From positions 1 to 33,355 of the forward strand of contig JAPYQK010000005.1 of assembly GCA_029941275.1 (NCBI GenBank): DNA of 33,355 bases. The letters are read 5' to 3'. The notes beneath the pieces were generated by a model that saw only the letters and a list, made by a program, of their open reading frames with translations, was not told the origin of the DNA and made no database searches. The stretch is from Longimicrobiales bacterium. Lineage in GTDB: Bacteria; Gemmatimonadota; Gemmatimonadetes; Longimicrobiales; Gaopeijiaceae. Positions 17,133 through 23,287 of the stretch are shown here, piece by piece (the stretch's first letter is position 1; the number at the start of each line of letters is the position of its first letter). The translations under genes and the position numbers were made by a program.

Positions 17133-18140
17133 TCAGGCAGACGTGGCGAGCGTCAGGACCGTACGTTCTACGACGCCTCGAGTCAGCGGGATCTTATAAG
17201 CGTTCTTCGAGAGCGGGGTTGCCCCCGCCACGGCGGCCGCGCCCACCGCACGGGCTAGTTCCGGCGTGACACGCTGGCCGGCCAGTAAGCTCTCGGCCTC
17301 CGGCACTCTCCACGGAATGGGCGCCACACCCCCAAGCACGATCTGTGCCTCCCGACACACGTCGCCGTCCATGTCGAGCACGACGGCGGCGCTTACCAAA
17401 GCGTGGGTCCAAGCATCTCGGTCCATGACCTTATGATACGTACTCCGCACGCCACTCCCCTGCGCTGGCAACACCACTGAGGCCAGCACCTCGTCGTCCG
17501 CCAAAACATTTTCGTGAGATGCATCCTGGCTGGGAAGCACGAAGAAGTCCGATCCGGACAGGGTCCGCTCACCGGTGGGCCCCACGACACGGAACGTCGC
17601 GTCGAGAGCGACGAGCGCGGGTGCGAGGTCCGAAGGATGAACGATGAAACTCGGGCCACCACCGAAGATGGCGTGGAGTTGGTTTTCACCCGCCACCGAG
17701 TAACACTGATCGCCCCCGGCCTTGAAGCAGGGGAATCCATTACGGTAGTACCAGCACCAGGGCCGCTGAACCACGTTGCCCCCCAGCGTGCCGACGTTCC
17801 GGATCTGCGGGCTCGCAACACTCTCCGCGGCCTCCGCGAGTACGGCGAACCGGCCGCGGACGACGGCGTTATCTGCGAGTGCGCTGAGCGTGATCATGCC
17901 ACCCACGGTCGTATCGCCGGACCCGCTCGTGACCTGATCGAGCCCCTCCACGGTCGTAAGGTGGACGAGGACGTCCGGTTCGGCGGATCCCGGGCGATTC
18001 ACCACCCTGTCCTTCATCAGTTGTAGCAAGTCGGTGCCGCCGCCCGCAAAAGAGACCGATTGGCCGGCGCTGATCGCCTCCTGCGCGAGCGACACGGCCT
18101 CGTCCAAAGTGCGGGCATTCTGGTTCGTAAAGGCTTTCAT
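17133..18140 (-). CDS. Molybdo-hydroxylase FAD-binding subunit (YagS/PaoB-like)
   Basis: SFAGGGTDLLQLMKDRV, SPQIRNVGTLGGNVVQRPWCWYYRNGFPCFKAGGDQCYSVAGENQLHAIFGG, HPSDLAPALVALDA; ATGA overlap with the Mo subunit. Confidence 0.92.
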   Translation of the reverse strand: MKAFTNQNARTLDEAVSLAQEAISAGQSVSFAGGGTDLLQLMKDRVVNRPGSAEPDVLVHLTTVEGLDQVTSGSGDTTVGGMITLSALADNAVVRGRFAVLAEAAESVASPQIRNVGTLGGNVVQRPWCWYYRNGFPCFKAGGDQCYSVAGENQLHAIFGGGPSFIVHPSDLAPALVALDATFRVVGPTGERTLSGSDFFVLPSQDASHENVLADDEVLASVVLPAQGSGVRSTYHKVMDRDAWTHALVSAAVVLDMDGDVCREAQIVLGGVAPIPWRVPEAESLLAGQRVTPELARAVGAAAVAGATPLSKNAYKIPLTRGVVERTVLTLATSA

Positions 18141-20320
18141 GCTAGCGCCTCCAGAACCCGTTCCCGTGTGATGGGCAGGTCCTTCATGCGAACTCCGATG
18201 GTGTTGAAGATCGCGTTGGCCACCGCCGCGGGGCCGAGAATGATTCCCGCCTCTCCGACGGTCTTGGCGCCGTACGGACCGTGACCATCATCGGTCTCGA
18301 TGAAGGTCACCTCGATTTCCGGCACATCCACGTGGGTCAAGTGACGGGCGCCGTAGTATCCGGCCGTGAGAGGATGACCGTTTCTCGGGTCATACAAGAG
18401 GTCCTCGTGCAGCGCTTGTCCCAACCCTTGAAGCGCGGCGCCGCGGATCTGATCTCGGGCGGGCAGCGGGTTGAGGATGCGCCCCGACTCGTGCACCGCG
18501 ACGTACTTGGTGACCCGGATGTGTCCAAGCTGCACGTCCGCCTCTACCTCGACGAAGTGCGCGCCGAAACACATACGCCGGGCGCCCTGCGTGCTAGGGG
18601 TCGGCGTCGCCGATGCGATCAGCACACCACCGTCCGTCGGCATGCCTTTTTCGGCGATCTGACCCTTGAGGTCGATGGCAGCTTGCACGACGGCGTAGCC
18701 CGTCATGGTGGTCGTCCGGCTTCCCGACTCGCCCACGGAGTACGGGCAAAGATCGGTATCACCCCACACGACCTCCACCTCCGACAGCGGCACACCCAAC
18801 TCCTCCGCGGCGATCATGGCCATCGTCGTTTTGGCGCCGGGCCCGATGTCCGTCACGCCCACGAAGAGCGTGTACTGCCCATCGGAATCCACCCGGAGGA
18901 TCGCACTGCTCGGGCCGACGCCCGAACGGAACATCATGAACGCCATGCCGGCCCCACGTTTGATCGGGCCCGGGTCCGAACCCGGCACGGGGCGCCAACG
19001 GCTCTCCCAGTCGAAGAGCTCTCGGCCCCGCGCGATGCACTCGTCCATCGTGTAGTTCGTGTACCGCTGCTCCTCGGTCGGCCTGCGCATGTTCTTCAGC
19101 GCGAAGTCCACCGGGTCCATGCCGATTTTGTACGCGATGTCGTCCATCATCGACTGCATGGCGAAGTGGCCCTGCGGATCCGAGGGCGCCCGGAAATTGC
19201 CGGACACCATTCGGTTCGTGTGGACCGGGTAGATCATGCGGTCGACGTTGGGGCACGCATAGATGTCGGTCCCGCTGATCCCCCCGGACCGCCTCAAGTA
19301 CGGACCCATACCGCTGTGCCCGACCATCTTGATGGCCGTGACTTCACCGTCCGCGGCCACGCCCACCGTGAAGTCCTGGATGGTGTGCCAGCGGCCGTGT
19401 GTGCCGAGCCAATCGTCCTTGCGCGTGAGCTCGAGCAGCACCGGCGCATCCGTCTCCTTGGCCAAGGAGGCGGCGATGAGATCAAAATAATAGCTGCCGT
19501 TCTTGTCGCCGAAGCCGCCGCCCATGTACTTGCAGATGATCTGGACTTGATGGTCCTCCAGACCTAGATCCCGAGCGTTGTCGTGACGGCAGTTCGAGAT
19601 GCCTTGGGTCGGCGTGTAGATGGTGACTTTGTCGCCGACCCACTGAGCCAGCGCGCTGCGCGGCTCCATCTGACCGTCCTGTACGAAGGCGGTCGTGTAG
19701 CGATCCTCGAAAATCCGGTCGGCTGCTGCAAAACCCGCTTCCGGGTCCCCGCTCGTCCCGCCCGACGGTCTCGGCTGGTTCGAAAAGTCCATCCCGAGGT
19801 TGCCTTCCGGCCAAATCCGCGGAGCGTTCGGCTCAAGCGCCTCTTCGGGATCGATGACGAAGGGCAGTTCCTCCCAATCGATTTCGATGAGTTGGAGGGC
19901 ATCCTCGGCCAAATGCCGGTTGACCGCGGCCACCGCAGCGATGGGCTGGCCGACGAAACGCACAGGGTTGTCGAACATGTACCTGATGCGTGTGGTGATG
20001 TCCTTGGCAGCGTCGCTGTATTGCCGGCCTCCGGCTATGGAGCCCGAGCTGTAAATCAACTGATGCGTCTCGTGCGTGATGACCGACCGCACGCCCGGTA
20101 GCGCTTCTGCCGCTGAAGTATCGATGCTGCGAATACGCGCGTGGGGATGCGGGCTCCTCAGCACCCGGGCGTACAACATTCCCGGAAGCTGCATGTCGCG
20201 GGTGTAGGTCGCTCTTCCCGTCACACGCTCGTACGAATCGATGCGCGGGACGTCGCGCCCCACCGTGTCCATGGGTCCAACCTGTTGGTCGACTTGCTGA
20301 CTCGCCGGCTTCGTGGTCAT
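18137..20320 (-). CDS. Molybdo-hydroxylase molybdopterin-binding subunit (xanthine dehydrogenase/YagR-like)
   Basis: ERVTGRATYTRDMQLPGMLYARVLRSPHPHARI, CKYMGGGFGDKNGSYY, C-terminal KTVGEAGIILGPAAVANAI containing the catalytic Glu. Likely start 20320 (ATGA overlap with the 2Fe-2S subunit) rather than 20398. Confidence 0.93.
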   Translation of the reverse strand: MTTKPASQQVDQQVGPMDTVGRDVPRIDSYERVTGRATYTRDMQLPGMLYARVLRSPHPHARIRSIDTSAAEALPGVRSVITHETHQLIYSSGSIAGGRQYSDAAKDITTRIRYMFDNPVRFVGQPIAAVAAVNRHLAEDALQLIEIDWEELPFVIDPEEALEPNAPRIWPEGNLGMDFSNQPRPSGGTSGDPEAGFAAADRIFEDRYTTAFVQDGQMEPRSALAQWVGDKVTIYTPTQGISNCRHDNARDLGLEDHQVQIICKYMGGGFGDKNGSYYFDLIAASLAKETDAPVLLELTRKDDWLGTHGRWHTIQDFTVGVAADGEVTAIKMVGHSGMGPYLRRSGGISGTDIYACPNVDRMIYPVHTNRMVSGNFRAPSDPQGHFAMQSMMDDIAYKIGMDPVDFALKNMRRPTEEQRYTNYTMDECIARGRELFDWESRWRPVPGSDPGPIKRGAGMAFMMFRSGVGPSSAILRVDSDGQYTLFVGVTDIGPGAKTTMAMIAAEELGVPLSEVEVVWGDTDLCPYSVGESGSRTTTMTGYAVVQAAIDLKGQIAEKGMPTDGGVLIASATPTPSTQGARRMCFGAHFVEVEADVQLGHIRVTKYVAVHESGRILNPLPARDQIRGAALQGLGQALHEDLLYDPRNGHPLTAGYYGARHLTHVDVPEIEVTFIETDDGHGPYGAKTVGEAGIILGPAAVANAIFNTIGVRMKDLPITRERVLEALA

Positions 20321-21057
20321 TGCGCACCTCCCGATCCCGAAGTCCCGGCGGCCGCTAACACGGCCTCCACGATCGCGTTGTAATTCGAGCAACGACAAAG
20401 GTTGCCCACCATCGCCTCACGCACCTCTTCCGTACTCGGTCGCGGGTTGTTGTCCAGCAGCGCGGTCGCCGTCATGAGTTGGCCCGGCGTGCAAAAGCCG
20501 CACTGAGGTGCATTGTGATCCATGAAGGCTTGCTGCAGCGTAGACACCTCACCGTCGTCGCTCTCGAGTCCCTCAATGGTCACGACGGCTCGACCGTCCG
20601 CCCACACCGCCAGCGTGCTGCACGAGTAAGTAGGCTCGCCATCCACCAGCACCGTACAAGCGCCGCACTCGCCACGGTTGCAGCCGATCTTGGAGCCCAG
20701 GAGCCCCATTCCGTCACGGAGGAACTCGTTGAGCGTCCACCGGTCTTCGACTTCTACTCGCTGCTCGTCACCGTTGACGGTCACGCGGATGGACGTCCGC
20801 GGAACTGGAGCGGCTTCCTGCCAGACGGGCCCTGCCGGTGAGGCCTCCACGGCTTCTAAATTCGTCGTACTGGCTGCAACCAGGGCAGCCCCCGTGCCTC
20901 CCAAAAACCCTCGTCGCGTGAGGCCGGCGTTCTCTGCCTCACTCTTCTCCACCTCGCTCATCCCCATCTCGCCCTCTTCAGGGGATTCTCCACTCCGGCG
21001 GATATCGCCGTCCTCGCGCTTGCCGTCCATGGTTGCCTGCCCACGTCGAGTGATCAT
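20317..21057 (-). CDS. Molybdo-hydroxylase 2Fe-2S subunit with Tat signal (YagT/PaoA-like)
   Basis: LTRRGFLGGTGAALVAAS twin-arginine leader; GCNRGECGACTVLVDGEPTYSC and CGFCTPGQLM...GNLCRCSNYNAIVEAV cluster motifs. Confidence 0.93.
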   Translation of the reverse strand: MITRRGQATMDGKREDGDIRRSGESPEEGEMGMSEVEKSEAENAGLTRRGFLGGTGAALVAASTTNLEAVEASPAGPVWQEAAPVPRTSIRVTVNGDEQRVEVEDRWTLNEFLRDGMGLLGSKIGCNRGECGACTVLVDGEPTYSCSTLAVWADGRAVVTIEGLESDDGEVSTLQQAFMDHNAPQCGFCTPGQLMTATALLDNNPRPSTEEVREAMVGNLCRCSNYNAIVEAVLAAAGTSGSGGAQ

Positions 21058-21178
21058 AAACCGCTTCTTACCGAGGTACGTTCAACTCCGCCAATCGGCC
21101 CCGGCCAAGGACCTGATGCGTCGCCGCCCCTCATGCATGTAGGACATCATGCAAGACATGACAAGGCCCGGAGCTTCT

Positions 21179-21590
21179 TCATTCGTCTAACCTGAAACCG
21201 AGGTAGATCCGGCATTCGTTGCTACCCAGGCACCCCTGGTTCGGCATATTCGTATTGAACGTTATCACAGGCCAATCGTCCTGCAGTAGGTTGTGCACCC
21301 GCAGGTGTATGATGGAGGACGTGGACACATCATAGTCCAACGACAGATTGACAAGATGTTCGTCCTATTTATACGCATCATGTTTATACGCATCATGCCA
21401 TTGATCGAAGGCGGGATTCCCGTAGGGACGTCTCAAAGTAGCTGGTGGAAGCGATCCTTACGTCCATCAATTCTTCTAGCGATAGGGTCCACAAAGACTG
21501 AGTGTCATCTTGGGCTCTCAGTTCGGGCGGACGAACGAAGAATAAGAGTAGGACCCAAGAGCACCTTCTCATGACGCCGTTGCTTATCAC
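21179..21590 (-). pseudogene. TonB-dependent receptor remnant (N- and C-termini only)
   Basis: N-terminal piece (21393-21590): MISNGVMRRCSWVLLLFFVRPPELRAQDDTQSLWTLSLEELMDVRIASTSYFETSL (signal peptide plus receptor N-terminus). C-terminal piece (21179-21364, different frame): DEHLVNLSLDYDVSTSSIIHLRVHNLLQDDWPVITFNTNMPNQGCLGSNECRIYLGFRLDE*, typical outer-membrane receptor ending. Confidence 0.7.
21368..21397. repeat. Perfect 15-bp tandem duplication
   Basis: TTTATACGCATCATG x2 without spacer, located between the two TonB receptor pieces. Confidence 0.95.
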
Positions 21591-21774
21591 TACTTTTTAC
21601 CCTTCATGATCCGGTACGATCCGCTTCACGTGGTTCGCCCACACCCTACCAACATGGGGTGCAGGTCGGCGGAGAGCGAACCGGTCCAGGCTACGGGACA
21701 CCTCTGATTTTCACCCTTGAGCGGCTCGAGACCGCCGGGGACGCTACGCGCCTGCGGATAGACTGCCCCGCTCA

Positions 21775-21827
21775 CAAGACGGTGCCACCGTCTTGCTGTC
21801 CAATGTCATTGCGCGGTGGCATTGGAC
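21775..21827. other. Two adjacent hairpins in a structured intergenic region
   Basis: CAAGACGGTG-C-CACCGTCTTG (21775-21795, perfect) and GTCCAATGTCA...TGGCATTGGAC (21798-21827, one mismatch). Additional complementary segments TGGTTCGCCC (about 21632) / GCGAACC (about 21676). Confidence 0.7.
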
Positions 21828-21928
21828 CACACAGTTTCAGGCTGAGGCCCCACCTTCGCGCTGCACCACGCTCGGGGTGTTTGGGGCACCTCACATGGCA
21901 GACGCCAGGCCCAAGTCAGGAGCGAGTT

Positions 21929-23287
21929 ATGATGACGAGCAGCCCCAAGTTCCGATCCTTGCAGGTTTCCGCGATGCTGTCGCTGGCCCTGGTTCTCCTC
22001 CTTGCCACCGCAAGAGCGGGGGCCGCGCAGGAGCAGTCCAGCTTCACGTTTTCCGAAGACATCGCTCCGATCCTGTTCGAGAACTGCGCTGGGTGTCATC
22101 AGTCGAGCGGCATCGGGCCCATGCCTCTGCTTAGTTACGACGATGTGCGGCCTTATGCGGCACACATCAAGCGGAAAGTGCAATCGCGTGAGATGCCGCC
22201 GTGGCATCTAGATCCCACGATCGGAATCCAAGCGTACAAGAATGACATCTCCCTCACCGATTCCGAGATCGGCAGAATCGCGAGTTGGGTCGACGCAGGA
22301 GCACCCGAAGGTGATCCCGCCCTGCTTCCGATGCTCCCGATGCTAGCCGACGGTAGCGAGTTTCACCTCGAAGCCCTGCTGGGGCCTCCGGACTTCGTCG
22401 TCGAAGCCCCGCCCTATACGATTGCCGCCAACGCTCAGGACCAGTGGTGGACACAGACGACACCCTTCGAGGGCCTCATCGATTCACCGCGCTACGTGAG
22501 GGCCACGGAACTGAAGGGCTCCTACCCGATGGGTGTAAAAGTCCTGCATCACGGACATGTGACGCTCGCCTTCGAGAACGAAGAGGGTCGCCGCCAATCA
22601 CGGCCGATCGGTCGCCAAGGCATCGGCAAAGGCGGGGATCTGTTTCCGGACGACACAGGCATGCTCATCGGCCCCACAGGCTCGCTGAACTGGAACCTCC
22701 ACTACTTCCCTATCGACGAAGAGGTGCCGAACGAGAGCGCCCTCGCCGCGGTGTGGCTCTACCCGGAGGGGTACGTGCCCGAGTACGAGACCGTCGGGGA
22801 GCAGCGGTTCACAGCGGACCGTGGTGGTGATATGCCCTGGGCCGGCGACATCGTCATCCCACCGCACTCGATCAAGGTGCAACAGGGAGTCCACGTTCTG
22901 AACAGGCCCGCGCTGATCCAGAGCTTCCGGCCTCACATGCACATGCGAGGAAGAGAGCAGTCGTTGGAGGCGATTTACCCCAACGGACGCCGCGAGATGC
23001 TGGCGAGGGTCGACAAGTACAACCACTTCTGGCAGATCACGTACGAGTTCGAAGAGGACGTGGCCCCTATCCTGCCCAAAGGCACCGTCTTGATGATCAC
23101 GACGACCTGGGACAACACCGCCGACAACCCGGTCAACCCGGATCCCCGTCAGTGGGTGGTGTTCGGACAACGTGGGGTTGATGAGATGTCTCACGTTTGG
23201 CTCGGGATGACGTACCTCAGCGACGAGCAGTACGAGCGGCTGACCCTCGATCGGAACCGGGTTGCGTCCGCGCGGGACGATCGCTGA
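21929..23287 (+). CDS. Cytochrome c domain fused to a PHM-like (copper type II) monooxygenase fold
   Basis: Start ATG at 21929 after CAGGAGCG; signal peptide; FSEDIAPILFENCAGCHQSSGIGPMPLLSY heme-c motif. PHM-like ligand set: VLHHGHV, NWNLHYF, FRPHMHMRGRE, GVDEMSHVWLGMTY. Confidence 0.82.
   Translation: MMTSSPKFRSLQVSAMLSLALVLLLATARAGAAQEQSSFTFSEDIAPILFENCAGCHQSSGIGPMPLLSYDDVRPYAAHIKRKVQSREMPPWHLDPTIGIQAYKNDISLTDSEIGRIASWVDAGAPEGDPALLPMLPMLADGSEFHLEALLGPPDFVVEAPPYTIAANAQDQWWTQTTPFEGLIDSPRYVRATELKGSYPMGVKVLHHGHVTLAFENEEGRRQSRPIGRQGIGKGGDLFPDDTGMLIGPTGSLNWNLHYFPIDEEVPNESALAAVWLYPEGYVPEYETVGEQRFTADRGGDMPWAGDIVIPPHSIKVQQGVHVLNRPALIQSFRPHMHMRGREQSLEAIYPNGRREMLARVDKYNHFWQITYEFEEDVAPILPKGTVLMITTTWDNTADNPVNPDPRQWVVFGQRGVDEMSHVWLGMTYLSDEQYERLTLDRNRVASARDDR

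Follow-up and report, generated by a model that had tools for sequence, protein, structure and literature searches.

A probable TonB-dependent receptor pseudogene at a gene-turnover spot in a Longimicrobiales genome

Two short, adjacent segments on the minus strand of contig JAPYQK010000005.1 (assembly GCA_029941275.1) together form what we consider a convincing remnant of a TonB-dependent receptor (TBDR), of which little more than the two ends survives. The segments lie at 21179-21590 of the window, by which we mean the whole stretch of 33,355 nucleotides that was analysed. Of several possible explanations, we favour, at a probability of about 80%, a pseudogene with the following history: at a spot of gene turnover, a receptor of foreign origin took the place of most of a quinoprotein gene, and was later internally deleted. 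The assignment is convincing because two independent profiles pick segments that lie next to each other with the expected order and orientation; the tail by itself would be weak evidence. Judged from the sequence, receptor function has clearly been lost, as no receptor should be obtainable from a head and a tail that are out of frame, with a nonsense codon in the tail and with neither plug nor barrel.

The receptor head (21396-21572, minus strand) begins at an ATG at 21572, a GTG at 21590 being a possible alternative start, and its translation opens with MRRCSWVLLLFFVRPPELRAQDDTQSLWTLSLEELMDVRIASTSYFETSLRES. A hydrophobic stretch resembling a signal peptide (assigned by eye and not with a predictor) is followed by DDTQSLWTLSLEELMDVRIASTSYFETSLRES, and the N-terminal box, LSLEELMDVRIASTS, gives a profile match at about 21441-21503; beyond it, out-of-frame residues lead to a TGA at 21393-21395. 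The receptor tail (21182-21427, minus strand) is read in a different frame, as 21572-21340 = 232 is no multiple of 3. From 21427 to 21179 it translates as PYGNPAFDQWHDAYKHDAYK, an internal TAG at 21365-21367, and DEHLVNLSLDYDVSTSSIIHLRVHNLLQDDWPVITFNTNMPNQGCLGSNECRIYLGFRLDE, which ends at the stop codon at 21179-21181; the strands matched by the profile lie at about 21275-21355. About 53 recognisable residues are left in the head and about 60-80 in the tail. The original prediction, that a signal peptide and receptor N-terminus are followed after a gap of about 70 bp by a receptor C-terminus, is thus borne out by the translations, the profiles, and the order and orientation of the pieces, with about 85 bp separating the box from the recognisable last strands.

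The switch of frame from head to tail and the end of the homology of the head place the putative deletion junction somewhere within 21400-21440 on the minus strand. Near this zone is an exact tandem duplication of 2 x 15 bp, (TTTATACGCATCATG)2, with copies at 21368-21382 and 21383-21397. The TAG of the tail sits directly after the second copy; an origin of this stop codon in the duplication was considered and rejected, as the TAG comes after the second copy regardless. A functional TBDR requires one uninterrupted frame, some 600 or more codons long, that encodes a plug (PF07715) and a beta-barrel (PF00593), while the locus offers two frames interrupted by the TGA and the TAG, and its approximately 400 bp are too little space for both domains. 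Neither piece matched any family in scans of Pfam, NCBIfam and PHROG, which is expected because the pieces fall outside the modelled domains.

In the clearest related receptors used for the profiles, the open frame runs over about 620-700 codons, in agreement with the 600 or more residues anticipated for an intact receptor. By this measure, roughly 500-600 codons would be missing, a loss that takes in the plug and almost the entire barrel. Loss of nearly the whole gene, as originally claimed, is consistent with this figure; the word “excised” exceeds the evidence, as the deletion is deduced from the homology of two ends with no intact parent found, and one deletion or several, in more than one possible order and by more than one possible mechanism, could account for it.

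A feature overlooked in the original prediction is that the receptor tail abuts or overlaps a second dead gene, a PQQ-type quinoprotein gene of which the last roughly 25 codons, encoding a decayed C-terminus (GLVMSCMMSYMHEGRRRI; 21115-21191, minus strand), remain in the window. This stub is 70% identical over 23 aa to the corresponding sequence GLVMYGMMSYMHEGRQRI of a congener, G001 (tblastn, E 1e-6 against a 1.1-kb target), and its DNA is 73.7% identical over 171 bp (blastn, E 1.7e-22). Homology to G001 begins at 21191, no more than about 10 bp from the receptor end, and therefore the last codons of the tail, FRLDE and the stop, may already be quinoprotein-derived. It picks up again near 21854, on the other side of the relic.

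Both flanking genes are intact. One (20317-21057, minus strand) encodes the [2Fe-2S] subunit of a xanthine dehydrogenase/aldehyde oxidase-type enzyme (Fer2_2, 2.7e-31; Fer2, 3.3e-8), has homologues in the congeners G001, G002 and G003, and belongs to three genes that encode molybdenum hydroxylase subunits on the minus strand (20317-21057, 18137-20398 and 17133-18140), downstream of the relic. Elsewhere in the genome, a paralogue of this subunit (L030, G000:C16:12372-13055) was matched with one in-frame TGA, which may reflect a further case of gene decay or a fault of the assembly. The other flank (21932-23287, plus strand) encodes a cytochrome-c-like and copper-monooxygenase-like protein with weak Pfam matches; it is 80% identical in G001, in the same synteny. 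Its family is strongly expanded: at a cut-off of E <= 1e-50, this genome of 2.9 Mb gives 11 matches, and other genomes of the bacterial family give up to 17. The intergenic DNA upstream of the relic contains short inverted repeats at 21776-21835, read by eye (AAGACGGTGCCACCGTCTT; CCAATG...CATTGG), perhaps a terminator-like or repeat element, and the surrounding 763 bp have no second copy in the genome.

Between the same two flanks, G001 possesses an intact PQQ-type quinoprotein gene (L039, 8772-10976), and in G101 a related quinoprotein gene (45% identity; L043, 388-2346) is located upstream of the cytochrome-like gene. Both thus occupy the same genomic spot as the relic, the window having kept the last codons without the body. 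In G003, the flanks enclose genes for an esterase-like and an FG-GAP/VCBS-like protein, and the same pair adjoins the [2Fe-2S] gene in G002 (the names quinoprotein, esterase-like and FG-GAP/VCBS-like were given by eye from the sequence, with no profile). When the interval 20317-21932 is compared with L039, L040, L041, L042 and L043, its contents accordingly differ between related genomes, being a quinoprotein, the esterase-like and FG-GAP/VCBS-like pair, or the receptor relic, a variability that the original prediction likewise passed over. One might speculate, with considerable reserve, that the interval between the [2Fe-2S] and cytochrome-like genes is a recurrent exchange spot of this lineage, where unrelated cargo genes replace each other and the stubs are layered as a record of successive occupants.

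The main rival to a pseudogene is a misassembly, in which an intact receptor, or two strains, supplied short reads that were falsely joined, so that only the draft lacks the middle. In its favour, the contig stems from a draft of 318 contigs with a completeness of 85%, and no more than about 40 bp separate the tandem duplication from the junction zone. However, the tail carries a TAG of its own and the neighbouring quinoprotein gene has decayed independently, which points to a locus that is genuinely decayed. Also, searches with the two pieces and with a plug/N-box query did not turn up the missing middle of the receptor elsewhere in the assembled genome, although it could still sit in the unassembled 15%. 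We regard a misassembly as unlikely, while giving it more weight than any other alternative.

It is far less probable still that the resemblance arose by chance in intergenic DNA that never held a receptor, as might be argued from the empty family scans and the failure to find a parent. The profiles were reached via a generic TBDR N-terminal consensus, used only as a lead, which matched plasmid loci that in many cases carry a TBDR annotation. The N-terminal portion of one such gene, from an Indioceanicola plasmid, retrieved about 30 strong homologues in the phylum; their starts include LKRLSIDQLMNIEVTSVSRRAERLSHAASAIQVIT and their ends YAELNARLTWQPTRTLGLSLVGQNLLHDRHAEF...GVFGGVEWHF. From phylum members and plasmid genes, profiles were made of 19 N-boxes and of 24 C-termini, the latter also including four receptors of the same genome. 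Against the N-box profile, the score of the head was 20.8 bits, the best of its 2,000 shuffles reaching 8.9; against the C-terminal profile, that of the tail was 10.9 bits, compared with 6.7 for the best of 2,000, so that each piece ranks 1/2,001. Receptor homology is thus present in both pieces, although the match of the tail is modest (i-Evalue 0.066 in the 2,001-sequence set). The window contains 727 stop-to-stop frames with 25 or more codons; of these, the N-profile matched that of the head best (E 1.8e-5; next 0.1), and the C-profile that of the tail (E 0.009; next 0.6). Chance would have had to place the best matches to two independent terminal profiles side by side, in the same orientation and in the right order, within a sharp dip in GC content.

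The head possesses what precedes the plug in a TBDR, a signal peptide and an N-box, and the support for it as a receptor N-terminus is strong at the level of sequence; the tail has the barrel strands that close such a protein, with a weak absolute score, and its sequence supports a receptor C-terminus less firmly. Least probable of all is that the head encodes a small secreted peptide of up to 65 aa and was retained for a function of its own, the tail being a separate relic: it is open from the ATG or GTG and has a signal-peptide-like start, but its recognisable part is a TBDR N-box, the reading after the box leaves the frame of the tail and meets a stop, and 120 other genomes of the family contain no convincing homologue.

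A search for the intact parent, as the original prediction had envisaged, returned none in the same genome, in the 120 family genomes (head), in 395 genomes of the phylum (tail; best E 0.0035, in a frame that did not look receptor-like) or in two tblastn scans of GTDB contigs, which require exact short peptides and so detect close relatives only. Searches of the assembled genome showed no other copy of head or tail at the protein or DNA level, nor a second copy of the relic or its upstream DNA. The DNA pattern of the box occurs across the 395 phylum genomes in the window and in one other match. Weak matches in G017, G071 and G183 were discarded, as the recovered frames did not look receptor-like, and matches of the pieces to plasmids (tblastn) were judged to be chance. 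In a search of PDB sequences the head had no match, and those of the tail were chance similarities to TIR adapters. The intact homologues that the analysis did recover are only distant, full-length TBDRs, with no close parent among them.

The relic has a GC content of 0.50 and lies in the part of the contig with the lowest GC (410-bp windows: mean 0.626, sd 0.028). The same genome has eight other TBDR barrel hits, at loci with a GC of 0.60-0.64; among its receptors with N-termini that were read, none starts with the box of the relic, and a plug/N-box query found no match in the genome at E <= 1e-8. The low GC and the lack of this box among the receptors read suggest that the receptor was probably acquired from outside the lineage, from a donor of lower GC, while AT-biased decay could have contributed to the dip.

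Under the history that we favour, a quinoprotein gene would originally have occupied the spot between the [2Fe-2S] subunit gene and the cytochrome-like gene. A segment with a foreign TBDR from a lower-GC donor may then have displaced nearly all of it, with about 25 last codons remaining. An internal deletion, perhaps a single one, would subsequently have removed about 500-600 codons of the receptor, and with them the plug and all but a little of the barrel. This would have left the signal peptide and N-box, a scarred junction with a change of frame and a 15-bp duplication, and the last strands, presumably without any other function.

We consider the relic a real but ordinary pseudogene remnant at a gene-turnover spot. 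For annotators, it follows that neither a receptor nor a small secreted protein should be called here. Its value is modest: where relatives have other genes, two superimposed dead genes within about 500 bp allow past gene turnover to be read from the sequence, and one well-marked pseudogene is added to a lineage known mainly from draft genomes.

The closest comparison is with TBDRs that have a LSIEQLMNIEVTSVS-type N-box, represented by plasmid genes of Indioceanicola, Pseudoalteromonas and Caballeronia (L070-L072) and by phylum members among L080-L102. With these the relic shares a signal peptide followed by a box near the start of the plug and, at the C-terminus, the end of the barrel, including an xNLL turn and a hydrophobic last strand. 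It differs from them in that plug and barrel are nearly all gone, that its two pieces stand in different frames and that a nonsense codon is present; its box is also divergent, with RIASTSYFE in place of EVTSVSRRPE. A literature search that combined TBDR, pseudogene and internal deletion returned, by their titles and abstracts, only papers on other topics. The formation and removal of bacterial pseudogenes are well described (PMC2916853, PMC9336565). Set against bacterial pseudogenes in general, the relic displays the same truncation, change of frame, premature stop and decayed neighbour; it is not unusual in kind, and both of its termini happen to survive.
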